From positions 62,001 to 126,000 of the forward strand of contig NZ_JAHXDN010000004.1 of NCBI RefSeq assembly GCF_019375555.1: a stretch of DNA of 64,000 nucleotides, given 5' to 3'. Position 1 is the stretch's first letter; each line of letters starts with the position of its first letter. The notes under the pieces were generated by a model. That model was not told the origin of the DNA, made no database searches, and saw only the letters and a list, made by a program, of their open reading frames with translations. Positions 1 through 62,129 of this stretch are shown here, piece after piece. Source of the stretch: Roseobacter insulae. GTDB lineage: Bacteria > Pseudomonadota > Alphaproteobacteria > Rhodobacterales > Rhodobacteraceae. The position numbers and the translations under genes are program-made.

Positions 1-591
1 ATTGGTTATCTGATCGACCGGCGACTTTCTGTACCCGCCTGTGAAAAGCAAAAAGGGTACTTGCGCCCGGCGAGCGGTCTCGGCGTCGATTTCGCTGTCT
101 CCGACATATATGAGCTTTTCTCCATCGAGATCTTCAAAAGCTGCTTTCAGCATGGCCGGATCCGGCTTCCGTGTGGGCAGGCTGTCTCCACCCCAAACCG
201 TATCGAAAAAACGTTTTATGTGCAGATGATCAAGGACGGCATGACAGGGGCCGATCAACTTGTTGGTACAAATGCCAAGCGCATGATGTTCACGAAGTTT
301 TTGCAGGCTGTCTTCAACACCCGGGTACAGACGGGTCTGGTCGAAGGATGTCGCATATTTTGCCACGAAGGCCTCTGTCAGATCCTCTTGCCGGTCGGGA
401 GGAATGTCCCTGAGGTCGCGCATCCTACGGATGAACACATCAATCCCGTTGCCGATGAAGCTGCGGGTCTCGGCCAGGCTGAGAGGAGCGATATTATCCT
501 GTGCGAGCAGCGCGTTGGCGATGCCCTGTATCTCCGGCGCACTGTCGATCAGCGTCCCGTCCAGATCAAAAACGATGCGAGCGCGGATCAC
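1..591 (-). CDS. HAD-family phosphatase, phosphoglycolate phosphatase-like (partial, 3' end outside window)
   Basis: A haloacid dehalogenase hydrolase, 197 codons visible and open at the window edge. The first residues carry the nucleophile motif FDLDGT (residues 8-13) followed by LIDSAPE, typical of the Gph/phosphoglycolate phosphatase branch. Later come a CTNK motif (motif II region), KPDP with the catalytic lysine, and VGDSEID (motif III/IV acidic pair). No signal peptide, so it should be cytosolic. The GTG start at 591 overlaps the stop of the 39-codon ORF before it (GTGA), so it is translationally coupled to the phn-type transporter operon. It probably removes phosphate from an imported or derived phospho-compound. 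The exact substrate (phosphoglycolate, a sugar phosphate or other) cannot be read from the sequence. Confidence 0.85.
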   Translation of the reverse strand, partial: MIRARIVFDLDGTLIDSAPEIQGIANALLAQDNIAPLSLAETRSFIGNGIDVFIRRMRDLRDIPPDRQEDLTEAFVAKYATSFDQTRLYPGVEDSLQKLREHHALGICTNKLIGPCHAVLDHLHIKRFFDTVWGGDSLPTRKPDPAMLKAAFEDLDGEKLIYVGDSEIDAETARRAQVPFLLFTGGYRKSPVDQITN

Positions 592-707
592 GGGCGGACC
601 ACCATGTGGCCCTGCGCGACCCGCTCGACTAGGCTGTCGCAGGCACGCAGACGGAATGGCGCAGTTGCATATCCTGCAAAGGTTTCCATATCGCGCCCCG
701 TCTTCAT
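588..707 (-). CDS. 39-aa coupled small ORF between phnE2 and HAD phosphatase
   Basis: The ATG at 707-705 overlaps the phnE2 stop by ATGA. Its own TGA (590-588) overlaps the GTG start of the HAD phosphatase. The predicted peptide is 39 residues, begins MKTGRDMETF and ends QGHMVVRP, is rich in Arg and Val, and has no membrane segment or signal peptide. I do not recognise a family. Overlap at both ends argues for real translation in the operon, either as a small protein or as a coupling leader for the phosphatase. It could also be a worn-down remnant of a longer gene. Confidence 0.5.
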   Translation of the reverse strand: MKTGRDMETFAGYATAPFRLRACDSLVERVAQGHMVVRP

Positions 708-1519
708 ATGATCGCTCCGCGTACCTTGGCCGATACCCATTCGCTTATGATAACCGCAACAAGGATTACGATCAGGATGAGGCTCACCTGTGGCCATGCA
801 AGCACGTTCAGAGAGGCGGACAATTGCAACCCGATGCCGCCTGCGCCAACCAGTCCCAGCACCGTGGATTCGCGGATGTTGATGTCCCAGCGGAACACGG
901 CAATCCCGGCAAAGGCGGGCAGGATTTGCGGGACGATCCCGTAGGCCATGACCTGCCACCGGGACGCGCCGGTGGCTGTGATCGCTTCAACCTGCGCATG
1001 GTCGATCTCTTCTATGGCCTCATAGAGCAGCTTTGCGCAGAACCCGATGGAGCGAATTGCAATGGCGATCACACCGGCAAAAACGCCGGGACCGATAATG
1101 GCGATCAACAGCAGCGCCCAGATCAGCGAATTGATCGACCGGGTCGAGACGATGATCAGCAGGGCAACCGGCCGGATCAAAAGCGCCGAAGGGGTTGTGT
1201 TGCGCGCGGCGAGGAAAGCAACGGGTACCGCCAGGAACAGCGCGATGAGAGTGCCGAGGGTTGCGATGTTCAGCGTGTCCCAGATGGGGCGTCCGAGTTG
1301 GGTGATGTATTCCCATTTCGGCGGTGTGGCACGCGTCCAAATGTCGTTGGCAATACGCGGAGCGTCCCAGACAAAAAACCATGTCGTGGCGTCAGAGATT
1401 ATCTGCCAGCAATATACGAACGCCGCCACGCCAAGCAGCCAGCCGAACCACCGCCCAAGGCTTTCCTTCCCTGTCCGGCGACGCCAGACTTGTGTGCCAT
1501 CCCGGTCAAGTACTGGCAT
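704..1519 (-). CDS. phnE: Phosphonate-type ABC transporter permease, PhnE family (second copy)
   Basis: 271-aa integral membrane protein of the PhnE/binding-protein-dependent permease family. The hydrophobic segments and the EAA-type coupling loop (VEAITATGASRWQVMAYG, about residues 185-202) are followed by the PhnE hallmark [14 protein letters not shown]. The start codon overlaps the stop of the upstream phnE (TAATG), and the stop overlaps the next small ORF (ATGA). With PhnC and PhnD it should form an importer for phosphonates, phosphite or phosphate esters. Two adjacent phnE genes giving a heterodimeric pore are common in alphaproteobacteria. The family is firm. The transported substrate is not fixed by sequence, and no C-P lyase gene is visible nearby. 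Confidence 0.9.
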   Translation of the reverse strand: MPVLDRDGTQVWRRRTGKESLGRWFGWLLGVAAFVYCWQIISDATTWFFVWDAPRIANDIWTRATPPKWEYITQLGRPIWDTLNIATLGTLIALFLAVPVAFLAARNTTPSALLIRPVALLIIVSTRSINSLIWALLLIAIIGPGVFAGVIAIAIRSIGFCAKLLYEAIEEIDHAQVEAITATGASRWQVMAYGIVPQILPAFAGIAVFRWDINIRESTVLGLVGAGGIGLQLSASLNVLAWPQVSLILIVILVAVIISEWVSAKVRGAII

Positions 1520-2334
1520 TATTGCACCCTCGCCCGGACGATGCCGGAAACATATTCCAGCGCCATCACGATCCCGATTATCATGATCAGGATCGCGGCG
1601 GCCGTGTCGTATTCATATCGGTCAAAAGCCGTGTTCAGCGTGGCTCCGATGCCGCCCGCGCCGACGAGGCCCAGAATTGCGCTTTCGCGGAAATTGATGT
1701 CGATGCGATAGATGGAGAGCCCTACGAGCCGTGGCATGACCTGCGGTTGCACGCCGTAATTGATCCATTGCATCCAGCGCGCGCCCGATGCCCTGATCGC
1801 CTCCGCCTGTACCCGGTCCATGGATTCGATATCCTCTGCGAGGAGTTTGGAGAGAAATCCGATGGTGGCGAAGGACAGGGTCAAAAATCCGGCCAGCGGT
1901 CCGAACCCGAAGATGGCGACGAGCAGGATGGCGACGATGATTTCCTGCAATGCCCTGCTGATCGCAACTATGCCGCGGCAGGCGACATACACGGGCAGAG
2001 GGGCGATATTGCGTGCCGCTCCCAAGCCGATGGGGATCGAGATCAATATGCCGACGACAGAGGCGGCGACCGTCATCACGATGCTCTCCAGCAGCCCAGC
2101 CCAGATATCACTGGCCCGCGACACGAAATCCGGGCTGGTGAAGGCAAGGATGAACGCCCAGCCACGATCAAGGCCTTCGTATACACGCCCCCAATCGACC
2201 TCGATGGTCATGACAGCGGCAATCATATAGGCGACAAAACCAGCAATCACCGCCCAGCGGAGCGCCGGGTTCGTGATGAAATGCGGCTTGCGCCATGAGG
2301 TGCCGAGCTTGTCCTCAAGCTGGATGTCGCTCAT
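1519..2334 (-). CDS. phnE: Phosphonate-type ABC transporter permease, PhnE family (first copy)
   Basis: 271-aa permease paralogous to its downstream neighbour. It has several hydrophobic helices, a coupling loop around [20 protein letters not shown] and the PhnE signature [15 protein letters not shown] near the C-terminus. Its ATG overlaps the phnC stop (ATGA) and its stop overlaps the next phnE start (TAATG), so the two permeases are made in a coupled 1:1 fashion, as expected for a heterodimer. The N-terminal ~30 residues are soluble and followed by a first hydrophobic helix. Confident on family and operon role. Confidence 0.9.
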
Positions 2335-3128
2335 TGCGCCGCCTCGATCTCGTTGCCGTTGTCGTCAACGGCTTCAATAGTCGCCTCCCAGTCCTCTTCG
2401 CCGTAAATCTCGGTCAGTTTCCCGGGCGTCAATCCGTTTGGCGGCCCATCAAAGACGATCTCTCCGAAACGCAGGCCAACAACGCGCGGCACAAACATCT
2501 GCGCAAGAGCCACGTCATGGATGTTGATGATCGCTGCCAGCCCACGTTCGCGGCATAGTTCGGTGATCAGGCGCATGATCTGGCGACTGGTTTTCGGGTC
2601 GAGGGATGCGGTGGGTTCATCCACCAGCAACAACTTGGGGTTCTGGATCAGCGCGCGACAGATGCCGACACGCTGGCGCTGACCGCCGGAAAGCTCATCA
2701 GCACGCTTGTCGGCCATGTGCAGCAGCCCCACACGGTCGAGCAGGCGAAACGCCTCGTCCACATCCGATTGCGGGAACCTGCGCAGAAAGGATCGCCAGA
2801 AGCCCACGAAACCGAGCCTGCCCGACAAAACGTTTTCCATCACGGTCAACCGTTCGACCAGCGCGTATTCCTGAAAGATCATGCCCATCTCGCGCCGTGT
2901 CTTGCGCAGGCCCGTGGCGCCCAGCTTCACAAGATCAACCCCGTCAAGGAGGGCTTCACCACTTGTGGGCTCCACGAGGCGGTTGATGCAGCGTATCATG
3001 GTGGACTTGCCCGCGCCCGATGGTCCGATCAACGCGAGCACTTGGCCCTTCGGGACCTCCAGATCTATCGCCTTGAGCGCTTGGTCACCCGTCTTATATG
3101 TTTTTGTTAGTTTTTTTAGCTGCAGCAT
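2331..3128 (-). CDS. phnC: Phosphonate-type ABC transporter ATP-binding protein PhnC
   Basis: 265-aa ABC ATPase. Walker [10 protein letters not shown] lies at residues 35-43, the signature [15 protein letters not shown] and Walker [13 protein letters not shown] in the second half, followed by the H-loop (NIHDV). This arrangement and length are standard for PhnC. It energises the two PhnE permeases encoded immediately downstream (ATGA overlap with the first). It is separated from phnD by 65 nt that contain a hairpin, which could let the binding-protein part of the transcript outlast the rest. Cytoplasmic face of the inner membrane. Confidence 0.92.
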
Positions 3129-3152
3129 GCCCTGCCCCTGAGACTGATCGCA

Positions 3153-3170
3153 GGCCCACGGCTGTGGGCC
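3153..3170 (-). promoter_or_regulatory. Intra-operonic hairpin between phnD and phnC
   Basis: Perfect 7-bp stem with a 4-base loop (minus strand GGCCCAC-AGCC-GTGGGCC) in the phnD-phnC gap. There is no T-run after it in the minus direction, so it is more likely an mRNA-stabilising or attenuating hairpin than a full terminator. Such structures often follow periplasmic binding-protein genes and raise their expression relative to the membrane components. Confidence 0.55.
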
Positions 3171-3193
3171 CGCTGTTTCTTTCTGGTAGCAGA

Positions 3194-4168
3194 TTATTCG
3201 CAGGCGTAGGAAACGCCGTTGGCCGCATCGATTTTGCGGATCACGTCCCAGAATTCCTGATAGGTCATCTCAAGGAACTGGCCTTCGTTGGACTTCGAGA
3301 ATTCGGCTTCCAGCGATGTGCCTTCCCAGTCGAAACTGAAGAACGCATTGCGAATGCTCTCCTGCAATTCCGGCGTGAGGTTATAGACGGTGCCAAAGCC
3401 GGTCGTCGGGAAAGTCTGTGACTTGTAGATGGTGATCACATCGTCTTCGCTGATCACGTCACGGCTGATCATGCGCGACTTGACCGAGTTGGCGATGGAA
3501 GCAGCAAGATAGTCCTTATTGGCCACGCCGAGGATCGAGTTGTCGTGCTTGCCGGAATAAACCGGCTCGAAATCGCGTTCGGGGAGAAGATCGAAATCAC
3601 TCTTCAGGATCGCGGAGGGCGCCTTGAAGCCCGAATTGGATGTCGGAGACGTAAAGGCGAGTTGCTTGCCCTTGATGTCTTCGACCTTCTCGATGCCGGA
3701 CCCCGGATATGTGATGATCTCCATCTCATAGCCGAAGTTGCCGTCCTTGGAGGCCATGATAGTGAAGGGCCGGAAGCCTGCACAATTCACGGCCAAGGGG
3801 TTTGAACCGGTATTGAAACCTGCAATGTGCAAACGGCCTGACCGCATCGCTTCGATCTGGGCGGCGTTGTTCTGAACCGGAAAGAAGACGACATCTTTGC
3901 CGGTTTCCGCTTCGAGATGTTCCAGAAAATCCGACCATGCCGTTTTGTACACTGCGGGGTCTTCCACCGGTGTGTAGGCAAAAATCAGCGTGTCCGGGTC
4001 GATCTGCTGAGATGCGTCCGTCGGAATATCGGCGATCAGGTCGCCATCGGCGTCGCAAAACCGCTCATCCAGATCGCCGCGCGGGCATTCCTGCGCGGAT
4101 GCCATCGAGCCGATCGATAGAAAGGCGATCGCGGATGCACTCAGCATCAGTTTCCAATTAAGTTTCAT
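3194..4168 (-). CDS. phnD: Phosphonate/phosphate-ester ABC transporter periplasmic binding protein PhnD-like
   Basis: 324-aa secreted solute-binding protein. The N-terminus has a typical signal peptide (MKLNWKLML...MASAQ), then a short Cys-containing segment (two cysteines about ten residues apart, plus a final Cys near the C-terminus) that may form disulfides. The body has the PhnD-family start [13 protein letters not shown] and the ligand-loop region [14 protein letters not shown], where Ser/Thr residues normally hold the phosphonate or phosphate group. A strong GGGAGG ribosome site precedes the ATG. It lies 32 nt after the DeoR-type regulator gene and before phnC, so it is in the same transcript. 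Substrate not determinable: phosphonates, phosphite or organophosphates are all possible for this family. Confidence 0.9.
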
Positions 4169-4200
4169 TTATTCTTCCTCCCTGGTTTTGATTGTCTTAA

Positions 4201-5046
4201 TTACTGACTTTGCTGCGCACTATCTGCAACACGAATATCCACCCTTGCCGCGATCAGTGCATCCAGCAAATCCTGTTCCGGCCTTGCGTCGGCAAACACG
4301 GTGTTCAGCCCCTCGATGCCCACAACCCGCGCCAAACCTTTCTGACCGAACTTTTCAGATCCTACCAAAAGCTGGCAGGTCGATGCGCGTCTCAACATCT
4401 CCCTTTTGACGGCCGCGAAGCCGTGAACGGTCTCTGAGACACCGTCCTTGCACAGCCCGGATGCACCCATCATGCACCGGTCCACATTGTAATTCCGCAA
4501 AAACTCCAGTGTCTCCGTGCCGATCACCGCGCTTTCGGACGCCTGATACTCTCCCGGGCACAGCAGGACATTTATCGCCCCGTGGCCGAGCGTCATGGCA
4601 ACCGGCAGCGAGTTGGTGATAACAGTGCAGGACACACCACGATAGGCCAGCGCTTTTGCCAGTTCGATGGTCGTGGAACCTGAATCGATCATAATCGTTT
4701 CGCCCTCACACACTTCGGCGGCAGCGAGAGTGGCGATGCTCGCGCGTTCGGCGACGCGGCCGGCGGTGCGCTCTTCAAGACTGGGATAATGTCCCTGAAC
4801 AGGAACAGACGCACCACCGTGGGCACGATCAATCAGCCCATCCTTTGCCAGGGCATCCAAATCCCGCCGCAGCGTCTCGGCCGATGCATTGAAGCGCTGT
4901 GCAAGGTCGCTGATCCGCACGTGCGGGCGCAGCTTCAGCTCAAGTAAAATCTGCTTGCGACGCTCTGTCTTTTTAAGCTTGCCATTGCGGTCACCCAATC
5001 TCGTATCCTGAGCTGCTGTTTCCACTGAACGACCGATCCCACTCAT
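4201..5046 (-). CDS. DeoR/GlpR-family transcriptional regulator
   Basis: 281-aa regulator. An N-terminal tail of about 23 residues is followed by a DeoR helix-turn-helix (residues 45-63, then RRDLDAL) and a C-terminal sugar-phosphate sensor domain with the ligand motif DSGSTT (121-126). DeoR-family sensors characteristically bind phosphorylated sugars or other small phosphates. It is the first gene of the phnDCEE operon (32 nt before phnD) and divergent from the Na/Pi-cotransporter operon, so it probably controls both from the shared 150-bp region. The effector is unknown. An organophosphate derived from the imported substrate is a reasonable inference. Confidence 0.88.
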   Translation of the reverse strand: MSGIGRSVETAAQDTRLGDRNGKLKKTERRKQILLELKLRPHVRISDLAQRFNASAETLRRDLDALAKDGLIDRAHGGASVPVQGHYPSLEERTAGRVAERASIATLAAAEVCEGETIMIDSGSTTIELAKALAYRGVSCTVITNSLPVAMTLGHGAINVLLCPGEYQASESAVIGTETLEFLRNYNVDRCMMGASGLCKDGVSETVHGFAAVKREMLRRASTCQLLVGSEKFGQKGLARVVGIEGLNTVFADARPEQDLLDALIAARVDIRVADSAQQSQ

Positions 5047-5138
5047 TTACCGCCGTAAGACTGAGGTCTTTCACAGCATTTTGCAATTTCTTTGTTGCTT
5101 AAACCACAATTGGATGAACAGAATTGGGAAACTGCAGC

Positions 5139-5160
5139 CTGACATGGAGTTGACTACAAT
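5139..5160 (+). promoter_or_regulatory. Weak Pho-box-like or promoter element in the divergent deoR / Na-Pi intergenic region
   Basis: The divergent region 5047-5199 contains CTGACAT and TTGACTA spaced 11 bp apart, the spacing of PhoB half-sites, but the second unit matches the CTGTCAT consensus poorly. TTGACT could equally be a -35 hexamer for the rightward operon. No DeoR operator could be identified with confidence. Low-confidence site recorded only because of the phosphate-related genes on both sides. Confidence 0.2.
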
Positions 5161-5199
5161 CGCTTTGCCTGTGTTTTCCCCAATCATCGAGACCCCGTC

Positions 5200-6861
5200 A
5201 TGATCATGCTTGCCGCGCATCTGGCCGCGGCGGTTGCGCTGCTGCTGTGGTCGGTTCGGTTGATCCGGACAGGGGTTGAGCGAGCATTCCTGCCGCAACT
5301 CAAGCGCCGGCTGAAGACCCTTGCAGGCAATCCGATATCTGCAGCCTCGGGCGGCGGTCTCGCCGCGATGCTGATGCAGAGCTCGACCGCGGTGGCGCTT
5401 ATTGGTGCCGGATTCGCGGTTTCGGGAATACTGGCGCCGCAAGCCGCGCTGGCGCTTTTGCTGGGAGCAGACCTCGGCTCGGCACTTATGGCGCAGGTTC
5501 TGGTATTGCCGGTTCAGGGTGTCATCCCCTTTGCATTGCTGACCGGGATCGTGACTTTTCTCAAGGCAAGCAACCGCAAGATCAAACAGATCGGGCGAAT
5601 TATCCTGGGTGTCGCGCTGGTCCTGATGTCACTGGAGATGATCCGAACCGCGACCTTGCCCATCGCCGGAAACGAAATCGTCCAGGCAATCGGGACCTAT
5701 TTTGAAGCAGATTTAGTGAGCGCCTACGCCGTCGGCGCATTGCTGGCGTGGGTCATGCATTCCAGCCTTGTCGCGGTGCTGACCTACGCCGCCTTTGCCG
5801 CAGCGGGAGTGATCGCGGGACCGGTAGCAGCGGCGATGGTGATCGGGGCCAATCTTGGCGGCGCGCTCATTCCCTTCGTTCTTTTGTGGTCCGGCGAACG
5901 CCCGGCAAGGCTTGTTGTTGCCGGCAACCTTGTCGCGCGCGGTCTGGTCACTGTCCTCATGCTTCTGCTTCTGATCGGTGGCGTCATCGATATGACCCTT
6001 CTGGGCGCGGCGGCAGGCCAGCAGGCAATTGTCCTTCACATGCTGCTCAACGGCGTTCTGATCATACTGGCCCTTCCGTTTGTCGGACCGCTGCTTCGCG
6101 GGATCGACGGCGCATTGCCAAAGCATCCGCAGGCCATGAGCGATAGTGTGTCCGCACTGGACCGCGATGCGTTTGATCATGCTCCGCTGGCCTTGGCCTG
6201 CGCGCAGCGTGAACTGCTGCGGATGGCTGAAACCGTGCAAGCGATACTCGTTCCGGTCATGCACCTGTTCCGCGGATGGGATCCGGAACTTGCGCGCGTG
6301 ATCGAACGGCGTGAGGATGATATCGACCGGATGCATTTCGACGTGAAGATCTATATTTCGCAGCTTCGTGAGACTGAACTGAACGACGCTGAAGGCAAAA
6401 AGACATTCGACATCGTTGCGACCGCAAACAGTCTTGAGGAAGCCGCCGACAGGATTGCGGTGAACCTTGTCGCACTGGCCAGGAAGATGCACGATGGCGG
6501 GCTTGCGTTTTCGGATCAGGGGTTGGCCGACCTTGAAGACTTTCATGACCAGGTTGTTTCAAACGGACAGCTGGCGCTGAGTGTTCTGACCACCGGTGAT
6601 GCAGAGGCCGCACGGCAGCTTGTCGCTGAAAAGGACCGCATTCGGGTCGAAGAACAGAAATTGCAGGAAAGGCACCTCAAGCGGTTGCAGCCGGGTCCAT
6701 CCGCCAGTCTGGACACCACCAACATCCATCAGGAATCACTGCGCTTGCTCAAGCAAATCAATGCGGCGCTGTCCTACGTGGCATACCCGATTGCCAAGGA
6801 AACAGGGGACTTGCTGGACAGCCGCCTTGCGCGTGCAGACGGGCTAGGAAGCCGGGTATGA
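5200..6861 (+). CDS. Na+/Pi cotransporter family protein with C-terminal PhoU-like domain
   Basis: 553-aa protein of the NptA/YjbB type. The first ~310 residues are highly hydrophobic and contain the paired transport motifs, the canonical QSSTA at residues 60-64 and a diverged second repeat around HSSLVAVL (about 189-196). The remaining ~200 residues are helical and PhoU-like (EEAADRIAVNLVALARKMH). It moves inorganic phosphate across the inner membrane. Related YjbB-type proteins export Pi when cytoplasmic Pi is high. First gene of an operon containing an organophosphate-type ABC importer and a phosphatase-fold gene, so release of surplus Pi after dephosphorylation is an attractive but unproven role. 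Its stop overlaps the next small ORF (ATGA). Confidence 0.88.
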   Translation: MIMLAAHLAAAVALLLWSVRLIRTGVERAFLPQLKRRLKTLAGNPISAASGGGLAAMLMQSSTAVALIGAGFAVSGILAPQAALALLLGADLGSALMAQVLVLPVQGVIPFALLTGIVTFLKASNRKIKQIGRIILGVALVLMSLEMIRTATLPIAGNEIVQAIGTYFEADLVSAYAVGALLAWVMHSSLVAVLTYAAFAAAGVIAGPVAAAMVIGANLGGALIPFVLLWSGERPARLVVAGNLVARGLVTVLMLLLLIGGVIDMTLLGAAAGQQAIVLHMLLNGVLIILALPFVGPLLRGIDGALPKHPQAMSDSVSALDRDAFDHAPLALACAQRELLRMAETVQAILVPVMHLFRGWDPELARVIERREDDIDRMHFDVKIYISQLRETELNDAEGKKTFDIVATANSLEEAADRIAVNLVALARKMHDGGLAFSDQGLADLEDFHDQVVSNGQLALSVLTTGDAEAARQLVAEKDRIRVEEQKLQERHLKRLQPGPSASLDTTNIHQESLRLLKQINAALSYVAYPIAKETGDLLDSRLARADGLGSRV

Positions 6862-6998
6862 GCAAGAAATACGCGCGTCTGGTCGATGAACACGACAGGG
6901 CCGAAAGCCTGAAGACACTTGCCAAACGCTTTAACAGTATGGCGATCATTGGAAATTTGCGCAAAGCCTCAAGAAGCTGCGCACAACAAGAGCCGTAA
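6858..6998 (+). CDS. Hypothetical 46-aa basic protein coupled to the Na/Pi transporter
   Basis: Small ORF whose ATG overlaps the TGA of the Na/Pi-cotransporter gene (ATGA). It ends 36 nt before the AfuA-type binding protein start. The peptide starts MSKKYARLVDEHDRAESL, continues with a predicted amphipathic helix rich in Lys/Arg, and has one Cys near the end. No signal peptide or membrane helix, and no recognised family. The coupling and the tight operon position favour a real gene. Comparative conservation would be needed to be sure. Confidence 0.5.
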   Translation: MSKKYARLVDEHDRAESLKTLAKRFNSMAIIGNLRKASRSCAQQEP

Positions 6999-7034
6999 AA
7001 GGCCGGTCAAACGAAAACCATGGGAGGAAAAAAC

Positions 7035-8060
7035 ATGAAGAGATTTGCTACCACATTAGCGGTATCGGTGCTTGCGCTATCCGCGTCGCTGTCGGCCGCG
7101 CAGGCCGACAAGCTGACGTTTTACTGCAGTGCGCAGGAAGACTGGTGCCAGTTGATGGCCCGCAGTTTCGAGGACGCGACAGGCATTGATGTAAACATGA
7201 CACGGAAATCGTCGGGTGAAACCTTCGCCCAGATCCGTGCGGAATCGTCTAATCCGAAGGGCGATGTCTGGTGGGGCGGTACAGGCGACCCACACCTGCA
7301 GGCAGCCGAAGAAGGTCTGACGATGGAGTATGTCTCGCCGATGCGCGACCAACTGCATGATTGGGCCATCAGCCAGGCCGAAAGTGCCGGCAACAAGACC
7401 ATCGGTATTTACTCCGGCGCTCTTGGCTACGGCTACAACACTGATCTGCTGGCCGCCAACAACCTGCCAGAGCCGTCGTGCTGGAAAGACCTGTTGAAGC
7501 CTGAATACAAAGGCCATGTGCAAATGGCGAACCCGAATTCCTCCGGCACGGCTTATACGACGCTGGCGTCAATGGTGCAGATCTTCGGCGAAGACGAGGG
7601 TTTTGACTTCATGAAGGGGCTGCATGCCAACATCAACCAGTACACGAAATCAGGGTCTGCGCCCATCAAGGCGGCCGGTCGTGGCGAGAACACCATTGGC
7701 ATTGTCTTCATGCATGATGCGGTCAAACAGGCCGTGTCCGGTTTCCCGGTGAAGGTCGTCGCACCTTGCGAGGGAACAGGCTACGAGATCGGCTCCATGT
7801 CGATCATTGATGGCGCCCGCAATGAGGAAGAAGCCAAAAAGTTTTATGACTGGGCGCTAAGTACCGAGGCGCAAAACCTTGCGCTGCAGGTCAACGCCTT
7901 TCAGGTGCCTTCGAACAAGGGAGCGGAAACGTCTCCATCTGCGCCCGATATGAGCACGATCAAGCTGATAGACTACGACTTCAGGAAGTACGGCTCCTCC
8001 GACGAACGCAAGCGCCTGCTGCAAAAGTGGGATGAAGACGTTTCGGTTTTGCCGCAATAA
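7035..8060 (+). CDS. AfuA/FbpA-like ABC transporter periplasmic binding protein
   Basis: 341-aa periplasmic binding protein. I chose ATG 7035 over the in-frame ATG at 7020 because GGGAGG lies between them at ideal spacing for 7035. A signal peptide (MKRFATT...AAQA) is followed by the family motif KSSGETFAQIRAE (58-70) and VWWGGTGDPH (78-87). These are characteristic of the branch historically annotated as iron(III)-binding, whose member AfuA is known to bind hexose phosphates instead. Two adjacent cysteines (31 and 38) may form a disulfide. Phosphatase-family neighbours and the Na/Pi transporter support a phosphorylated ligand. The precise ligand is inferred, not shown. Confidence 0.85.
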   Translation: MKRFATTLAVSVLALSASLSAAQADKLTFYCSAQEDWCQLMARSFEDATGIDVNMTRKSSGETFAQIRAESSNPKGDVWWGGTGDPHLQAAEEGLTMEYVSPMRDQLHDWAISQAESAGNKTIGIYSGALGYGYNTDLLAANNLPEPSCWKDLLKPEYKGHVQMANPNSSGTAYTTLASMVQIFGEDEGFDFMKGLHANINQYTKSGSAPIKAAGRGENTIGIVFMHDAVKQAVSGFPVKVVAPCEGTGYEIGSMSIIDGARNEEEAKKFYDWALSTEAQNLALQVNAFQVPSNKGAETSPSAPDMSTIKLIDYDFRKYGSSDERKRLLQKWDEDVSVLPQ

Positions 8061-8063
8061 ACC

Positions 8064-10283
8064 TTGCGCGCATCCGAAAACGATAAGACCACTCACCCGG
8101 TACTGACCTTATGGATCATCGCCGGGTGGGTCGGCTACTGCCTTCTGCCATGGTACATGCTGGAAGACGGATTGCTGTCGTTTGAGTGGCTGGTGGATGG
8201 CTATCCGTTCGACGAAGACTATGCGCCCGCCCTCTTCCTGATCGGCCAGGGTGAAAAACTGTGGCTCGCACCGCTGCTTTTGGCACTGGCGCTGCCGCTT
8301 CTTGCGCTGCGTCGCACGAAATCGGACCCGTGGTACGCGCGCCTGCTGATCCTGTCCGGCGCGATGGGCTTTGCCTGGTTGATTGCACAGGGTTTTGGCA
8401 TTGGAATCCGTGGCTACAACTTTGACTGGCTCAGCGCGTTACTTGGCGATCTGGGCGACCGACAGTTCGGCATGGGCTACGGTGCTATGATCACGGCATC
8501 GGCGTTTCTGTTCCTGCTGACGCAGGGCATTGCCGCCCGCGGTGCCATCAATGGCGATGTTTTTGTTGTCGGCGCAATTGGCGGGGTGATCGCCATTGTC
8601 ACCACCTTCGTGTTCTTTCCCATCGCCAAGATGCTGTTTGCCGCCTTTGTTACAGAGGACGGCGCCTATTCCCTGTCCGTCTTCGCCGCCAAGTTCTTTG
8701 ATGATCGCCTTTGGGGGCTGGGGTGCCTTGCGGGTGCCAGATGTGGGGCCGCGTGGAATTCACTCTTTCTCGCCCTTCTTGTCGGGTTCATCACAACCGT
8801 TCTGGGCCTGTGTTTCGCGCTGGTCGTGACGCGTTCGGGCTTTCGCTACAAACGCGCGATCCGGGCGCTCACGGTGCTGCCGATTATCACGCCGCCCTTT
8901 GTGATCGGGCTGGCGCTGATCCTGCTTTTCGGATTGTCCGGGACAGTCACCGTCTTTTTCGCTGATGTCTTTGGCACGCAACCGACGCGCTGGCTCTACG
9001 GGATGCCCGGCGTGCTGATCGCGCAGACACTGGCCTTCACCCCCATCGCCTTTCTTGTCCTCATCGGCGTGGTCGAGGGTGTGTCGCCGTCAATGGAGGA
9101 GGCCGCGCAGACATTGCGCGCCAACCGGTGGCAGACGTTTCGCACGGTTTCCCTGCCGCTGATGCGGCCGGGTCTGGCAAATGCCTTCCTGCTGGGCTTC
9201 ATCGAAAGCATGGCCGACTTTGGCAACCCGCTTGTCCTGGGCGGAAATTTCGATGTCCTCTCGACCGAGATTTTCTTTGCTATCGTCGGCGCGCAATACG
9301 ATCAGGGTCGCGCGGCGGTTCTGGCCATGGTTCTGTTGTTTTTCACGCTTTCCGCGTTCTATGCACAACGCGCCTGGCTGGGGAAAAAGAGCTACACGAC
9401 GGTGTCAGGAAAGGGAGATGCAGGCGTGCATCCGTTGATGCCGACGGGCCTTGCTGCGCCTGTCATGTGCGTGGCTCTGGGGTGGGCTTTGTTCACAGCT
9501 GTCGTTTACGGCATGATCATCTACGGCAGCGTGGTCGAGCTGTGGGGCGTGAACAACTCACTGACCTTCAAGCATTATATCACCGCCTTTTCGGTGCGTT
9601 TTGAAGCCGAGGGCATCCGCTGGACGGGCGCGGCATGGGATAGTTTCTGGACGACGATCACCATTGCAGCCATCGCCGCACCGCTGACCGCCGCTGTGGG
9701 TTTGGTAACGGCTTACCTGCTCACACGGCAAAGCTTTGCCGGCAAGAACGCCTTTGAATTCGGCACCATGCTCAGCTTTGCCATTCCGGGCACAGTGATC
9801 GGAGTAAGCTATATTCTCGCGTTCAATGTGCCGCCGATCGAGATCACGGGAACCGGCGTTATTCTGGTGGTCAGCTTCATCTTCAGGAATATGCCCGTCG
9901 GCGTGCGCGCGGGAATTGCCAGTATGAGTCAGCTCGACAAATCGCTTGACGAGTCGTCTCTGACGCTGGGGGCGAATTCGTGGCAGACCTTCCGCCGCGT
10001 GATCCTGCCACTGCTGAGGCCCGCGATCCTCGCCGCCCTAGTTTACAGCTTTGTGCGCGCAATGACCGCGATTTCAGCCGTCATTTTCCTCGTATCAGCT
10101 GAATATGACATGGCGACCAGCTACATCATCGGGCGTGTCGAAAACAACGACTACGGGCTCGCAATTGCCTATTCCACGACGTTGATCTTTGTGATGCTGT
10201 CCGCCGTGGGCATTCTACAGTTCCTCGTTGGCCGGGTGCAGATCGGTCGGCGAACCAATTTCGGCGCAGGGAGGTCGACATGA
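8064..10283 (+). CDS. AfuB/FbpB-like ABC transporter permease, two fused permease domains
   Basis: 739-aa membrane protein with two binding-protein-dependent permease domains in one chain. EAA-type coupling loops are visible at SMEEAAQTLRANRWQTF (about 343-359) and SLDESSLTLGANSWQTF (about 632-648), each followed by the usual PLLRP-type segment. An extra N-terminal membrane region of ~200 residues precedes the first domain. TTG at 8064, three bases after the binding-protein stop, is the best start since the next in-frame ATG (8156) would cut the first helix. Its stop overlaps the ATPase start (ATGA). It forms the whole pore for the AfuA-type importer. Confidence 0.88.
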   Translation: MRASENDKTTHPVLTLWIIAGWVGYCLLPWYMLEDGLLSFEWLVDGYPFDEDYAPALFLIGQGEKLWLAPLLLALALPLLALRRTKSDPWYARLLILSGAMGFAWLIAQGFGIGIRGYNFDWLSALLGDLGDRQFGMGYGAMITASAFLFLLTQGIAARGAINGDVFVVGAIGGVIAIVTTFVFFPIAKMLFAAFVTEDGAYSLSVFAAKFFDDRLWGLGCLAGARCGAAWNSLFLALLVGFITTVLGLCFALVVTRSGFRYKRAIRALTVLPIITPPFVIGLALILLFGLSGTVTVFFADVFGTQPTRWLYGMPGVLIAQTLAFTPIAFLVLIGVVEGVSPSMEEAAQTLRANRWQTFRTVSLPLMRPGLANAFLLGFIESMADFGNPLVLGGNFDVLSTEIFFAIVGAQYDQGRAAVLAMVLLFFTLSAFYAQRAWLGKKSYTTVSGKGDAGVHPLMPTGLAAPVMCVALGWALFTAVVYGMIIYGSVVELWGVNNSLTFKHYITAFSVRFEAEGIRWTGAAWDSFWTTITIAAIAAPLTAAVGLVTAYLLTRQSFAGKNAFEFGTMLSFAIPGTVIGVSYILAFNVPPIEITGTGVILVVSFIFRNMPVGVRAGIASMSQLDKSLDESSLTLGANSWQTFRRVILPLLRPAILAALVYSFVRAMTAISAVIFLVSAEYDMATSYIIGRVENNDYGLAIAYSTTLIFVMLSAVGILQFLVGRVQIGRRTNFGAGRST

Positions 10284-11356
10284 GCGACATGACAATTGCC
10301 AGCAAAGCCGCGCCAGTACGGTTCGAGAATGTCTCCAAGGTTTTTGGCAAGGATGTTATTGCCGTGGATAACATCAACCTGAATGTGGATGCCGGCAAAC
10401 TGGTCACCCTGCTCGGGCCGTCCGGTTGCGGTAAAACGACAACCCTTCGCATGATCGCGGGGCTGGAGATGGCCAGTTCCGGGCGTATCCTCATCGGTGA
10501 CCGCGATGTCACGAAACTGCCTGCCACGGATCGTGACGTTTCCATGGTTTTCCAGTCTTACGCGCTTTTCCCTCATATGAGCGTTCTGGAAAATGTCAGG
10601 TATGGGCTGACGTTTTCCGGCTTCGGCAAGGAAGAGGCGCGGGCACGCGCGCTTAAAGGGCTGGAACTGGTGGGACTGAAAGGATTTGATGGCCGCCTGC
10701 CGTCGGAGCTGTCCGGCGGCCAGCAACAGCGTGTCGCGGTGGCGCGTGCCCTGGTTCTGGAACCGCAGGTGCTCCTGTTCGACGAACCTTTGTCAAATCT
10801 CGATGCAAAGCTGCGGCGCCAGGTGCGCGAAGACATCCGCGCAATCCAGCAGGATCTCGGGCTGACCGTCGTCTATGTGACCCACGACCAGGAAGAAGCG
10901 CTTGCCGTATCGGACGAGATTGTGGTCATGCGAAACGCCGCCATCGCCCAGATCGGCACGCCGCGACAGCTTTACGACGCCCCCAACGACCGGTTCGTGG
11001 CGGACTTCATCGGTGAAGCCAACCTGATCGGGTGCCAGATCGTGGCGGTGGACGGAGACGTGGCCACCATTGAAATCGAAAACTACCGCCATGATCTGCC
11101 CGCGCGCGGCCTTGGACCAGGTTCAGCGACGCTGGCTGTGCGGCCCTCGCGTATCGTCATCGGTGGAGAGACGGGCGTAAAAGCAAGCGTTGCCAAGGCA
11201 ACCTATGTCGGCGTGCGCATGGAGTACACGCTGACCGGAGACTTCGGGCAGGTTTTTGCAGTGCAGGATAATGTCGACACGCCTTTCGAGGTCGGGAGCG
11301 AGTTGCGGATGACCTTTGCCGGGAAGGGGCCGGTGCTGCTCCCCGACGAAGGTTAA
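10280..11356 (+). CDS. AfuC/FbpC-like ABC transporter ATP-binding protein
   Basis: 358-aa ABC ATPase with Walker A GPSGCGKTT (46-54), signature LSGGQQQRVAVARAL, Walker B VLLFDEPLSNLD and a C-terminal TOBE-type regulatory domain of about 110 residues. The CUT1/FbpC-type architecture and length fit the partner of the fused permease encoded just upstream (4-nt overlap). The stop codon directly abuts the ATG of the histidine-phosphatase gene. Confident on function as the motor of this importer. Substrate inferred from the binding protein. Confidence 0.9.
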   Translation: MSDMTIASKAAPVRFENVSKVFGKDVIAVDNINLNVDAGKLVTLLGPSGCGKTTTLRMIAGLEMASSGRILIGDRDVTKLPATDRDVSMVFQSYALFPHMSVLENVRYGLTFSGFGKEEARARALKGLELVGLKGFDGRLPSELSGGQQQRVAVARALVLEPQVLLFDEPLSNLDAKLRRQVREDIRAIQQDLGLTVVYVTHDQEEALAVSDEIVVMRNAAIAQIGTPRQLYDAPNDRFVADFIGEANLIGCQIVAVDGDVATIEIENYRHDLPARGLGPGSATLAVRPSRIVIGGETGVKASVAKATYVGVRMEYTLTGDFGQVFAVQDNVDTPFEVGSELRMTFAGKGPVLLPDEG

Positions 11357-11923
11357 ATGGCCTCGTTGATCTTCGTATCGCACCCCGAAGTTGCAGTGGA
11401 TGCAGCCTGTCCGGTCACCCAGTGGGGCCTGAACGAGACCGGGCACGCACGGGCGCGGGCGTTCGCGCGCTCTGCTCTTCTGTCTGACGTTACTGCCATT
11501 TGGTCCAGTGAGGAACGTAAAGCTCGGGACACGGCAGAACACCTTGCAGCTTATCTTGACGTGCCCGTGCAGCAGGACGTTTGCCTGGGGGAGAATGACC
11601 GGACGGCCACGGGATTTCTGCCACCGGAGGTTTTCGAACGCGCGGCGGATGCGTTCTTTGCAAACCCGGAGACCTCGTTCAGGGGATGGGAGCGCGCAAC
11701 AGATGCGCAATCGCGGATCGTGACCGCCGTTCGATCCATCGTCGCGGGCCACGGGCGCGGTGATCTGGCAATCGTATCGCATGGCGCGGTTGGCACGCTT
11801 TTGTACTGCGCCCTGTCGCGTCTACCGATCAGCCGGGTACACGATCAGCCGGGCCAGGGACATTACTGGTCGGCTGACTTGGGTAATCTGGTGCCACGTC
11901 ATCCCTGGAGATCAATCGGTTAA
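11357..11923 (+). CDS. Histidine phosphatase-fold protein with altered RHG motif
   Basis: 188-aa protein of the histidine phosphatase (phosphoglycerate mutase-like) superfamily. The phospho-acceptor His is at residue 9 in the sequence VSHPEV, so the usual RHG/RHE arginine is replaced by Ser. The second catalytic His is in VSHGAVG (142) and the middle region IWSSEERKARDTAE fits the fold. The ATG directly abuts the ATPase stop, so it is the last gene of the importer operon and convergent with the inositol-monophosphatase gene. It may hydrolyse the imported phosphate ester. The missing Arg could mean altered or weak activity, but His-Pro-Glu variants occur in related small families. Confidence 0.75.
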   Translation: MASLIFVSHPEVAVDAACPVTQWGLNETGHARARAFARSALLSDVTAIWSSEERKARDTAEHLAAYLDVPVQQDVCLGENDRTATGFLPPEVFERAADAFFANPETSFRGWERATDAQSRIVTAVRSIVAGHGRGDLAIVSHGAVGTLLYCALSRLPISRVHDQPGQGHYWSADLGNLVPRHPWRSIG

Positions 11924-11925
11924 GC

Positions 11926-12732
11926 TCAGGCCTTCCACGCCGATACTGCAATTTTCTTCAGGGTGTCGAAAACCTCCGGCGTTCCCGTGATCACACGCCC
12001 GCCGTTGCGGATCATCTCGTCGGCGTCCTGCTTTTCGACGATCCCGCCCGCTTCTTCGATCAGCAATTGGCCGGCAAGGCAGTCCCACGCGTTCATGTGT
12101 TCCTCGACATAGCCCAGAAGCCGCCCGGCTGCGACATAGGCAATCGACAGCGCCCCGCTGGCATTGCGATGAAACATGGCACCATGGTCGAGAAGTGCTT
12201 GCACGACCGGCACGACATTTCGAGCGTCAATTCGGTTTGAATACCCTACGGCGACGGTTCCACTATCCAGACCAACCCCTGTTTTCACATGGATGGGAGC
12301 ACCGTTCAGCATGGCGCCACCGCCGCGAATTGCCGCGAAAGTCTCATGTGTAATCGGGTCGTGGATCACGCCGACCTGCGTTTTGCCGTCGGCCACGCCG
12401 GCCAGAACGATTGTCCAGTTCGGGATGCCGTTAACAAAGTTTGTCGTGCCGTCTATGGGGTCGATAACCCAGTCGAACCCGCTTTGGCCCTGCGTTGCGG
12501 CATGCTCCTCACCGAAGATACCATCGCGCGGCCAGCTTTCGGAAATATGATCCCGGATCAGCAATTCCACATTGCGATCCGCGTCGCTGACCCAATCCTG
12601 AGCGCCCTTCTGATCAACGTTAAGCTCTTGCCTGTTTTCGAAATAGCCGCGCGCCTTTCGGCCAGCCAATTGACAGAGATCGATCGCAAAAGCGGATTTT
12701 TCTTCCAGGTTCATTGGGTGAGATTGAGCCAA
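11926..12732 (-). CDS. Inositol monophosphatase family phosphatase
   Basis: 268-aa Mg-dependent phosphatase of the IMPase/SuhB/HisN family. All metal and catalytic motifs are present: GEE (74-76), DPIDGTTNF (91-99) and AWDCLAGQLL starting at about 215. Predicted cytosolic. It ends two bases from the stop of the histidine-phosphatase gene on the other strand, so the two phosphatase genes converge. Substrates of the family include inositol phosphates, histidinol phosphate and PAP. Here the neighbouring organophosphate importer makes a sugar- or inositol-phosphate substrate plausible. Start ATG 12732. A second ATG six codons on is also possible. Confidence 0.88.
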   Translation of the reverse strand: MAQSHPMNLEEKSAFAIDLCQLAGRKARGYFENRQELNVDQKGAQDWVSDADRNVELLIRDHISESWPRDGIFGEEHAATQGQSGFDWVIDPIDGTTNFVNGIPNWTIVLAGVADGKTQVGVIHDPITHETFAAIRGGGAMLNGAPIHVKTGVGLDSGTVAVGYSNRIDARNVVPVVQALLDHGAMFHRNASGALSIAYVAAGRLLGYVEEHMNAWDCLAGQLLIEEAGGIVEKQDADEMIRNGGRVITGTPEVFDTLKKIAVSAWKA

Positions 12733-13015
12733 GTGACCGCAGAATGCAATGCAGCCATCCTACCCCGAAGTCAGACCCTCTGGTCCGAAATCAGCCAGGG
12801 GTCGAGAGCCTGGACAGTAGCGGCCACGGTCACTGCGGCCCACTTGGGTGGCGATGTCTTTGGCGCCCATATTCAGCGCGATGCAAGCGCCAAAAGCGGT
12901 ACCTGTGCGGTCAGGAAACCGACCTAGTCGGCGGGCTATCATCTGAACTAGCCAGGGAGGTATGCACTGTTCACTCAAGCCGTGGTCGGTCTCCGATGTT
13001 CTGTTGCGGGAAGAT

Positions 13016-13795
13016 TTAGATGCTACACGCGTCGGCGAGCCGCAGTTTTTTGAGTGCTGGCAGAAAATTGTTCTGACGTGCGACCGCGCCGGTCGAAGCC
13101 AGCCCGATGCAGTATTTTGAGCAGTGCTTCGTCGGATGCAGATGCAGGCCCCGCAGAATTTTGTCAGCATGTCCGTTGCCGCGGGCGGATTTCGTTTCAA
13201 TGATGAACATGTCAGGCTCAACCGCACGCGCGACACCGTTTGCCTCGAACTGAAGACGGGTGTCGATGGTCATGCGCTCTCCGCCTTGCTTGGCGACCAG
13301 TGTGATGCGCAAGTACTTCATGGCGATCACGGGATGCAGCGTTTTGCCGAAACCTTCCGCGTAGATGTCGCGGTAGTTGGCTTCGATGAATGCGACCGCC
13401 CGATCGTTCAGCGGGTTTGTCTGATCATTGACCTTCAGCCGCTTCTTGACGGTTATCTTGCGCTTGTCCTTCAGCTTCACTTCGAGATAGCTGAAGCCGG
13501 CGTCCACATATTCGCGCACCCTGACCTTGCATCGTTTGCGGCGACCCTGGTGATGGTCGTAATAGCCGCGCAGTTCTGCGTCATCGTAATATCTGGTCGC
13601 ATAGGTGAAAGCGCGCTTGCCATCGATCTCCAGAACGTCGAAACGTTCAGAGAACTTCTCCAAGGCAGGTTTAAAAGTCGCGGCCGGAAGAATGTACTTG
13701 TTATCAAGACGTTCAAGCATGGCCGCTTTGCTGTTCAGCCCCTCTAGGCTGATCTTTTCAAAACCGGCGAGCGTTTGTGCGACATTGAGATCCAT
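13016..13795 (-). CDS. VTC-domain protein (polyphosphate polymerase-like)
   Basis: 259-aa protein of the VTC/CYTH-like tunnel family. Charged substrate-tunnel motifs are visible: ERLDNKY (28-34), the basic strand KRCKVRVREY (87-96), LEVKLKDKRKITVKKR (104-119) and the metal-type acidic strand FIIETKS (197-203). In eukaryotic VTC4 this domain makes polyphosphate from ATP. Bacterial single-domain homologues are usually found with a DUF4956 membrane protein, exactly as here (26-nt gap, same strand). A strong AGGAGG precedes the ATG. No membrane segment of its own. A role in polyphosphate synthesis is inferred from fold and neighbourhood. Confidence 0.85.
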   Translation of the reverse strand: MDLNVAQTLAGFEKISLEGLNSKAAMLERLDNKYILPAATFKPALEKFSERFDVLEIDGKRAFTYATRYYDDAELRGYYDHHQGRRKRCKVRVREYVDAGFSYLEVKLKDKRKITVKKRLKVNDQTNPLNDRAVAFIEANYRDIYAEGFGKTLHPVIAMKYLRITLVAKQGGERMTIDTRLQFEANGVARAVEPDMFIIETKSARGNGHADKILRGLHLHPTKHCSKYCIGLASTGAVARQNNFLPALKKLRLADACSI

Positions 13796-13821
13796 GTCAG
13801 CCTCCTGAGTTTTTTGGGGGG

Positions 13822-14397
13822 TTAAGCCTTGCGGAAGAACACGTTGATACGCGCCATGTCGTTGATGTAATCGAGCGCGGTGATTTGATAGGACATCACA
13901 TCGACACCCAAGCGGTTGGACAGGTCCTTGCGCATGGTTTCGGGGTCCGACAGGGCGTGCGGGTCGATCTTGTCGAGCGTGATCTTGACGCCATCGGCAG
14001 ACTGTAGAATGCGCGGATGATCAAGTGCCCACGCCCCCGCCAGAACCAGCGAGACAATCACGCCGACAAAGGCGATTTCCGTGCCTTGAATCGAGCAGAT
14101 GACAGCGATAGCGATCGCGCCAAAGAAATAGGTGATTTCGACTTTTGAAATCTGCTCTGATCGCAGGGTGAAAAGTGCGAGGATTGCAAACAGGCCAAAC
14201 CCGGCCGCCAGACTGAATTCCACGGAAGAAAGCACCGTGAGCACGCCAAAGGCGAAAACGTTGAAAAGCGACGCCGCCGTCACAAGTTCCTTGTCGCGAT
14301 AGCGGCTATAGTACAATCCGAAAACCAGCACCAACATGGCGACAATGTTGATGATGAATCGAATGAGCGTTTCGGGGGCGAGAACTTGTTCGAGCAT
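13822..14397 (-). CDS. DUF4956 family membrane protein, partner of VTC protein
   Basis: 191-aa integral membrane protein. I start at ATG 14397 (MLEQVLAPETL) because AAGGA lies at proper spacing and the longer frame adds a non-hydrophobic tail. About four to five hydrophobic helices fill residues 10-125, followed by a soluble C-terminal domain (KITLDKIDP...RINVFFRKA). DUF4956 proteins co-occur with VTC-domain proteins and are thought to form the membrane part of a bacterial polyphosphate synthesis/translocation unit. First gene of the two-gene operon, and the upstream region carries a Pho-box-like triple repeat. Confidence 0.85.
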   Translation of the reverse strand: MLEQVLAPETLIRFIINIVAMLVLVFGLYYSRYRDKELVTAASLFNVFAFGVLTVLSSVEFSLAAGFGLFAILALFTLRSEQISKVEITYFFGAIAIAVICSIQGTEIAFVGVIVSLVLAGAWALDHPRILQSADGVKITLDKIDPHALSDPETMRKDLSNRLGVDVMSYQITALDYINDMARINVFFRKA

Positions 14398-14490
14398 ATT
14401 TGTGATCCTTGACTGGCGCCTCGGAGCAGGCACCCTACGGATCAACTATTGCGCAGGACGCATGAACTCATCCTGTGCGGCTGATTACCC

Positions 14491-14523
14491 GCGTGTAACA
14501 GATTAATGAACGTTTTGTGACAA
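14491..14523 (-). promoter_or_regulatory. Pho-box-like triple 11-bp direct repeat upstream of DUF4956-VTC operon
   Basis: On the minus strand, reading toward the operon, three consecutive 11-bp units run TTGTCACAAAA, CGTTCATTAAT, CTGTTACACGC. Each starts with a relative of the PhoB half-site CTGTCAT, and the first two are followed by a 4-nt A/T spacer (AAAA, TAAT), the organisation of known Pho boxes. The site ends about 94 bp upstream of the DUF4956 start. Individual units match five to six of seven consensus bases, so binding is inferred. Confidence 0.5.
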
Positions 14524-61976: not shown

Positions 61977-62129
61977 TTTTGAAATCCATTTTTGTAGGGT
62001 GGGGAGGAGGTTTGAACGGCGGTGCAATCATATTGCTGTACAACGCCGCCCCCATTCCGGTGGCCCGTCTGCGGGGCGCCGGAATGTCTTGGTCAGGTCG
62101 CGCCCGGGGCACAACCGGATGTTTCGGGG

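Follow-up and report, generated by a model that had tools for sequence, protein, structure and literature searches.

What do two importers, a sodium/phosphate transporter and three phosphatase-family genes do side by side in the first 14.5 kb of a 64,000-nucleotide stretch of the Roseobacter insulae genome? The window, by which we mean this whole stretch (positions 62,001 to 126,000 of contig NZ_JAHXDN010000004.1, assembly GCF_019375555.1; G000:C12:62001-126000 in our numbering), belongs to a genome of 4.88 Mb in 17 contigs. An initial annotation, made from the letters alone, had answered with a single flow in which organophosphates are imported, phosphate is released and polyphosphate is stored. 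Profile scans recovered every gene family on its list, from the HAD gene through DUF4956, about where it had placed them (Table 1), and our comparisons point to a partly different answer: the locus is probably a salvage island for phosphorylated compounds of three (C3) or six (C6) carbons. Comparison with related genomes supports the presence of two predicted phosphate-ester importers, each recurrently found beside a gene of an intracellular phosphatase family.

Predicted importers of glycerol phosphates and hexose phosphates

The four genes labelled phnDCEE, which encode one binding protein, one ATPase and two permeases, form a single operon and most likely specify, judged from their predicted proteins, a Gpx-type importer of glycerol-1-phosphate (G1P) and glycerol-3-phosphate (G3P). 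The Gpx transporter was described in December 2025 in PNAS from Phaeobacter sp. MED193 and Marinobacter (PMC12718374), and the structures matched by the binding protein of the window are those of Marinobacter GpxB with G1P and with G3P. The operon of the window has the same make-up as the published ones and a close binding protein, in which all nine ligand residues named in the text of that paper are found (T111, G112, Y138, S168, N169, S170, H199, R223, T247); across 131 homologous GpxB segments, drawn from two collections so that some organisms appear twice, eight of the nine never vary and T247 is present in 130. By a published estimate, roughly 5 to 10% of the microbial cells in the surface ocean carry GpxB (PMC12718374) and, among the matches listed in named genomes, the proteins closest to that of the window come from Ruegeria and uncultured Roseobacter.

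The second importer most likely takes up hexose phosphates or other sugar phosphates, as predicted from its resemblance to AfuABC (PMC4546632), with which it shares close sequence as well as the serine, threonine, His-Asp and Glu ligand residues. The nearest solved relatives of its binding protein, which likely starts at 7035 with GGAGG just before, are AfuA (4r72), 8x1a and P5PA. The seven hexose-phosphate residues of AfuA tested, taken from the text of two papers (PMC4546632, PMC8427247), are all kept (S65, Y131, T177, H232, D233, E256, Q295), including the published sugar-phosphate motif, H205, D206 and E229 of AfuA, and this His-Asp-Glu triad is intact in 51 of 53 AfuA segments, the exceptions being L127 and L128. 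What differs from the published system is the setting: here the importer belongs to marine alphaproteobacteria, it is recurrently accompanied by an IMPase-family gene and sometimes by a histidine-phosphatase gene, and it often lies near gpx. The text of the AfuABC paper reports alpha- and betaproteobacterial homologues and does not describe such neighbours (PMC4546632), and among the open-access papers listed, judged by title and the start of the abstract, nothing on an afuABC-IMPase arrangement was found.

The naming of both importers in databases deserves a comment, since the initial annotation had suspected that AfuA-type proteins are misannotated as iron-binding. For this protein the case is weak: of 40 listed plasmid relatives, one is named an iron transporter, six bear no more than the generic name 'ABC transporter substrate-binding protein' and the others are unannotated, to which two PDB/plasmid neighbours bearing iron names may be added. 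Misannotation is clear for the gpx importer, where 36 of the 40 GpxB plasmid relatives listed in PLSDB are named phosphate, phosphite or phosphonate binding protein, the other four being unannotated.

Two further settings of these importers may be mentioned. On the NT-26 plasmid NZ_FO082821.1 (L253, 7932-11425), a GpxB homologue about 70% identical is accompanied by phnC and two phnE, no HAD gene being listed near them, and these genes stand a few kb from annotated azurin-dependent arsenate reductase/arsenite oxidase subunits and aioR; homologues 69-71% identical are carried by plasmids of NT-25, Sinorhizobium M14, Rhizobium Q54, Martelella and Agrobacterium. In such arsenic-gene company the importer perhaps provides an arsenate-free phosphorus source. 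A second AfuA cluster (L082, L121, L125, L126, L143 and others) has a divergent two-component system (c14, c16) upstream of afuA, sometimes with a HAD gene (c19) there as well, a regulatory layout that differs from that of the window; a comparable two-component pair adjoins gpxB in L131 and L257.

Phosphatase-family genes, regulator and candidate operator

Conserved linkage was assessed in 149 genomes of the family, one per genus, which are mutually related so that the Fisher values given below overstate independence. By preset E-values, these genomes hold GpxB in 48 cases, AfuA in 31, VTC in 5, a HAD-IIA relative in 47, a DeoR orthologue in 18, an IMPase in 29 and Na/Pi-PhoU in 51. Linkage was counted at the best place per genome, which leaves aside the second AfuA of G026, the second GpxB of G101 and a few second HAD-IIA and IMPase places, and 27 of the 51 Na/Pi-PhoU genomes were entered. 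The gpx neighbourhoods comprise 47 family loci from 46 genomes (the gpxB genomes G019 and G069 stand outside this set) and the 80 loci from named genomes most similar to the query, which overlap the family set (e.g., L198 and G079).

The gpx operon of the window ends on a C1-cap, Gph-like HAD gene, whose frame extends 63 bases past the left edge and encodes 217 residues in full (L070:938-1591, base 1 of the window being L070:1001). The predicted protein carries the canonical motif I (DLDGT for DxDGT) and scores 172.8 bits with the PGP_bact model TIGR01449, just below the cut-off of 180. In relatives, the same slot after the second permease, on the same strand, is held by a HAD-IIA gene in 27 of the 47 family loci and in 53 of the 74 named loci in which 900 bases or more could be judged, the aligned parts there being separated by a median of 27 bases; gpxB and HAD-IIA are linked in 26 family genomes. 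The HAD-IIA relative of R. insulae itself lies about 130 kb from gpx, its slot being taken by the C1-cap HAD. Both kinds meet elsewhere: in three named loci HAD-IIA precedes a HAD that shares 57-58% identity with that of the window, and eight have a C1-cap HAD immediately upstream of gpxB. That two unrelated HAD subfamilies recur at gpx operons argues for a phosphate-handling role. Just left of the HAD gene (L003 11291-11915, minus strand) we noticed open reading frames that, by eye, resemble RHS/YD-repeat fragments and suggest a rearranged left border.

The phosphatase-family partner of afuABC is the predicted IMPase, in which the family motifs GEE, WVIDPIDGT and WDCLAG are present. Among the 31 afuA genomes it lies within 12 kb of afuA in 15, and within 5 kb in 14 of these, with a Fisher p of 1.2e-10 for co-occurrence. 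The two importers themselves stand within 12 kb of each other in nine of the 16 genomes that have both. Na/Pi-PhoU occurs in the flanks of 20 of the 80 best-matching named gpx loci, and in Stappia and Nitratireductor gpx, HAD-IIA and Na/Pi follow one another on one strand (L229, L237, L238).

Which regulator could govern these genes? The DeoR gene lies at most 201 bases from gpxB in 16 of the 18 genomes having it; its true start is probably internal, because in 16 of 17 orthologues the alignment begins at residue 17-23. Between its promoter and that of Na/Pi-PhoU we found a candidate operator. The pattern GCAACAAA-N(3-8)-TTGCA has a single match in the window, with 0.03 expected, and 17 of 28 loci carry it upstream of DeoR; the core ATGCAACAAA, with at most one mismatch, occurs in the DeoR promoter region of 25 of the 28. 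These 28 loci served both to derive the core and to count it, the independent controls being the genome-wide and window scans. Across 273 loci the pattern occurs in 30, several of which overlap at one site, and by their coordinates 29 of these contain a DeoR promoter (L272 does not). No second target is claimed, a genome scan having given two sites, one of them L272, against one for a reversed-pattern control. Extension of the site to afuA was considered and rejected, in L071 because a NUDIX-family gene stands between deoR and afuA, and in L172 and L173 because just one-mismatch cores without the second half-site are present upstream of afuA. The position of the predicted operator between deoR-gpx and Na/Pi-PhoU means that one regulator may govern both. 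The reported rise of gpx proteins on G1P or G3P as carbon source, compared with glycerol (PMC12718374), fits substrate-driven control by a presumed inducer.

Table 1. Features of the first 14.5 kb of the window, with positions counted from its first base
Position	Strand	Feature	Evidence
1..591	-	HAD, C1-cap, Gph-like phosphatase (predicted), last gpx-operon gene	Pfam HAD_2 ~1e-31
704..1519	-	Second Gpx permease (labelled PhnE)	TIGR01097 272.7 bits, above cut-off; conserved with gpxB
1519..2334	-	First Gpx permease (labelled PhnE)	TIGR01097 263.7 bits, above cut-off
2331..3128	-	Gpx ATPase (labelled PhnC)	TIGR02315 324.9 bits, above cut-off
3194..4168	-	GpxB, periplasmic glycerol-1-/glycerol-3-phosphate binding protein (predicted)	phmmer 2.4e-149, PDB 9lf9/9lfb
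4201..5046	-	DeoR/GlpR-type regulator	profile scans
5082..5098	-	Predicted operator GCAACAAA-N-TTGCA, inverted-repeat-like	between deoR-gpx and Na/Pi promoters
5200..6861	+	Na/Pi cotransporter-PhoU fusion	Na_Pi_cotrans and PhoU domains
7020..8060	+	AfuA-type sugar-phosphate binding protein (predicted)	phmmer 7e-95 to AfuA 4r72
8064..10283	+	AfuB-type fused permease, 739 aa, two BPD_transp_1 stretches	profile scans
10280..11356	+	AfuC-type ATPase	profile scans
11357..11923	+	Histidine-phosphatase-family protein	His_Phos_1 1.5e-20; starts at base after afuC
11926..12732	-	IMPase-family phosphatase (predicted), recurrent afuABC partner	Inositol_P 1.4e-52
13016..13795	-	VTC-type tunnel (TTM) protein, possible polyphosphate polymerase	VTC 2e-28
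13822..14445	-	DUF4956 protein	DUF4956 1.4e-47

Weighing the alternatives

Several observations weigh against a salvage island of this kind. On the gpx side, 20 of the 47 family loci and 21 of the 74 named loci have no HAD-IIA gene in the slot (in at least two of the 20 the contig ends there), and a Pfam scan of three HAD-less gpx neighbourhoods (L201, L210, L228) gave no phosphatase genes. The second Asp of motif I is replaced by F or Y in 90 of 96 HAD-IIA rows, so the relatives' proteins are not textbook phosphatases and may not be ordinary phosphatases at all, and the window HAD, with its canonical motif, belongs to a different subfamily. On the afu side, the histidine-phosphatase-family protein has lost the catalytic Arg: RHG is the canonical catalytic motif of branch 1 of these enzymes, and SHP stands in its place in the window, with [ST]HP[EQ]V in all 14 relatives' segments examined, which makes its activity uncertain. 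Of the three phosphatase-family genes counted by the initial annotation all are present, one of them without its canonical motif. Furthermore, 8x1a, named by its depositors as iron(III)-compound-binding, is nearly as close to the AfuA-type protein as AfuA is (2.2e-93). As to the unity of the locus, the predicted operator does not directly flank afuA; the excess of genomes that have both gpx and afu is modest (16 against 10.0 expected, p 0.0098), and 7 of these 16 carry them on separate contigs; gpx and IMPase do not co-occur significantly (p 0.083); and co-occurrence of gpx with Na/Pi is borderline (p 0.044, with 27 of the 51 Na/Pi genomes entered).

Among the alternatives, the one that survives best concerns the direction of Na/Pi-PhoU, which could import phosphate freed outside the cell instead of exporting a surplus. 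The family name and Na+ coupling speak for import, and we regard it as a serious contender, if the less probable direction. YjbB, a Na/Pi protein, has been described as a phosphate exporter (PMC11389368), so that surplus phosphate may leave through Na/Pi-PhoU, though the protein of the window is 30% identical to the annotated yjbB of L256. Moreover, the recurrent partners of the fusion are importers that already bring phosphate in as esters. Besides gpx, these partners include ugp-like operons, whose Ugp names are best model hits, all below curated cut-offs. L154 has the order GlpR-ugpC-ugpB-ugpA-ugpE-metallophosphoesterase-Na/Pi-PhoU, with HAD-IIA divergent, and homology places the same set in L153, L157, L158, L159 and L192, L162 being without HAD-IIA in its stretch; since L153-L159 and L162 were chosen for a HAD-IIA or Na/Pi hit, the rate of pairing there is biased. 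Ugp-like genes neighbour gpx itself in three loci, L080, L192 (HTCC2255) and L233, and on a rhizobial plasmid an annotated yjbB lies near afuABC-IMPase-ugpBAE. UgpBAEC resembles the gpx unit in the compounds imported and, in relatives, in the HAD-IIA and Na/Pi-PhoU relatives that accompany it, and differs in belonging to an unrelated transporter family and in having a metallophosphoesterase. From this company, it seems reasonable to propose that Na/Pi-PhoU may be an outlet for surplus phosphate and not an inlet.

We consider it improbable that AfuABC carries iron, 2-aminoethylphosphonate or pyridoxal phosphate in place of hexose phosphate. Its superfamily does hold FbpA-, PhnS/AepX- and P5PA-type proteins, the match to 8x1a lends some weight to iron, and the best NCBIfam model for the ATPase is a ferric one, scored below cut-off; however, HitA, at the top of the next iron-binding group, matches the binding protein at 1.5e-12, against 7e-95 for AfuA, and the phnS2 cut-off is missed (233 versus 393 bits). 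As for pyridoxal phosphate, P5PA has Ala in place of Asp206 and Glu229 of AfuA (PMC8427247), both of which are kept here. A phosphatase-family neighbour recurs beside the importer. The 2-aminoethylphosphonate transporter AepXVW (PMC8316502) has a binding protein of the same superfamily (pfam13343), but no phnWX or phnWAY was found among the 14 genes examined here, and the ligand residues are of AfuA type.

That the locus is one Pho-regulated flow from organophosphate import through phosphate release to VTC/DUF4956 polyphosphate storage, as the initial annotation had it, appears quite improbable. All the parts do lie within 14.5 kb here, and VTC may well make polyphosphate. Its predicted structure has the tunnel fold of yeast VTC proteins: the model (predicted local distance difference test, pLDDT, 82.5) finds yeast VTC chains as its best Foldseek hits (8e-11, template modelling score on the query 0.57-0.63). 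A sequence search for solved relatives gave none at E 0.01. DUF4956, which adjoins VTC in five of five genomes, has a poor model (pLDDT 54.8); to the eye it resembles a membrane protein of several helices whose C-terminal domain is mixed, possibly a polyphosphate channel. VTC and AfuA share four genomes, with 1.0 expected (p 0.0068), and are unlinked outside the window. Yet VTC is present in 5 of the 149 family genomes and near gpx or afu in R. insulae alone, and neither VTC nor DUF4956 was found in the fetched flanks of any of the 80 best-matching named gpx loci. The pair therefore looks like a chance neighbour, its tie to the locus consisting of position in one genome and the unlinked co-occurrence with AfuA. 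The Pho-box-like repeat reported upstream of the pair, for which no position had been given, fares no better. The Pho box consensus is CTGTCAT-N4-CTGTCA; with up to three mismatches allowed, 18 matches fall in the window where 13.8 +/- 3.7 are expected, a number reached by 15 of 100 shuffles, and the sole match just upstream of DUF4956 (14496-14512) has three mismatches, so that the Pho box is not above chance by the one consensus tried, and Pho regulation is not supported. The predicted site at 5082-5098, absent from the initial annotation, is better supported. In related genomes the storage part is scattered, to a far greater degree than the parts for import and phosphate removal, and of the proposed flow, import and phosphate release stand by conserved linkage while polyphosphate storage falls away.

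Finally, a true phosphonate or phosphite importer, possibly one serving the C-P lyase, is very improbable, for although PhnC and both PhnE exceed their NCBIfam phosphonate cut-offs, database names agree and the genome encodes a C-P lyase, GpxB fails the PhnD equivalog cut-off (139.3 versus 261.1 bits) and holds all GpxB ligand residues, and the lyase gene (PhnJ) sits on a different contig, where about 5 kb from it there is a separate phn importer made up of phnC, two phnE and a phnD-like stretch.

Proposed route of salvage and its meaning

In the salvage route that we propose, glycerol phosphates would enter by Gpx and hexose phosphates by Afu. Once in the cytoplasm, the former would be relieved of their phosphate by the HAD and the latter by the IMPase, perhaps with the odd histidine-phosphatase protein, and the glycerol released would follow the GlpK/GlpD route, both enzymes being above cut-off in the R. 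insulae genome. The DeoR/GlpR-type regulator would act at a single operator, placed between the gpx operon to which its gene belongs and the Na/Pi-PhoU gene that diverges from it. Na/Pi-PhoU would vent phosphate in excess, because an ester that has three to six carbons for each phosphorus supplies more phosphate than is needed by a cell using it as carbon source.

The HAD slot invites a bolder proposal. GlpD is not known to accept any substrate but G3P. The importers of the GpxB and UgpB kinds do not discriminate between G1P and G3P (PMC12718374), from which it follows that some enzyme must handle G1P, whose fate after import is not treated in the text of that paper. It is tempting to suggest that the HAD of gpx operons is the missing intracellular step of archaeal lipid-backbone recycling, that in the window this slot has been taken over by a canonical HAD, and that Na/Pi-PhoU is the overflow valve of the gpx unit; we offer this as a tentative and rather unlikely proposal. 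The relatives' HAD-IIA could be an unusual glycerol-phosphate phosphatase or, more daringly, a phosphoryl-transfer enzyme turning G1P into G3P. It weakly matches PDB 4i9f and 7po7 (8e-11 and 3e-11), both named glycerol-3-phosphate phosphatases. With the HAD glycerol-3-phosphate phosphatases PA0562 and PA3172 (PMC9765544) the gpx-linked proteins share membership of the HAD superfamily; the differences are the aromatic residue at the second motif-I Asp in the relatives' HAD-IIA and the substrate of the window HAD, which is a matter of prediction. In a midpoint-rooted HAD-IIA tree with one very long branch, the ugp-linked rows come together as a single clade (support 100/100) amid gpx rows, and L131, a gpx row, groups with rows from outside gpx operons, a topology that fits repeated recruitment. 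The other HAD-IIA gene of R. insulae stands in a same-strand run (L152, G000:C12:189000-207000, 8663-14153, minus) with a glycerol-1-phosphate-dehydrogenase-like gene (151 bits, cut-off 413), an SDR, an epimerase-like gene and an ABC ATPase, and a related set occurs in L169.

The locus is real and partly conserved. Its transporters are of known kinds, and what is new beyond the published one is the set of coupled HAD genes, the regulator with its candidate site and the Na/Pi partner. The main text of the Gpx paper contains none of the words 'phosphatase', 'DeoR' and 'glpD', though its figures or supplement may show neighbours (PMC12718374), and no description of the HAD coupling, the regulator and site, the Na/Pi partner or the gpx-afu pairing was found in our searches of the open-access literature, figures and supplements aside; the papers listed on G1P-handling enzymes and on bacterial VTC were mostly unrelated. 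The regulation of gpx is named in that paper as work still to do (PMC12718374). For this regulation and for the fate of G1P after import, concrete candidate genes can now be named: those of the conserved HAD slot, deoR together with its site, and the gene for Na/Pi-PhoU, all of them testable in culturable roseobacters. At a wider scale, an importer named 'phosphonate-binding' that probably carries phosphate esters would affect surveys of the phosphorus cycle based on gene names.

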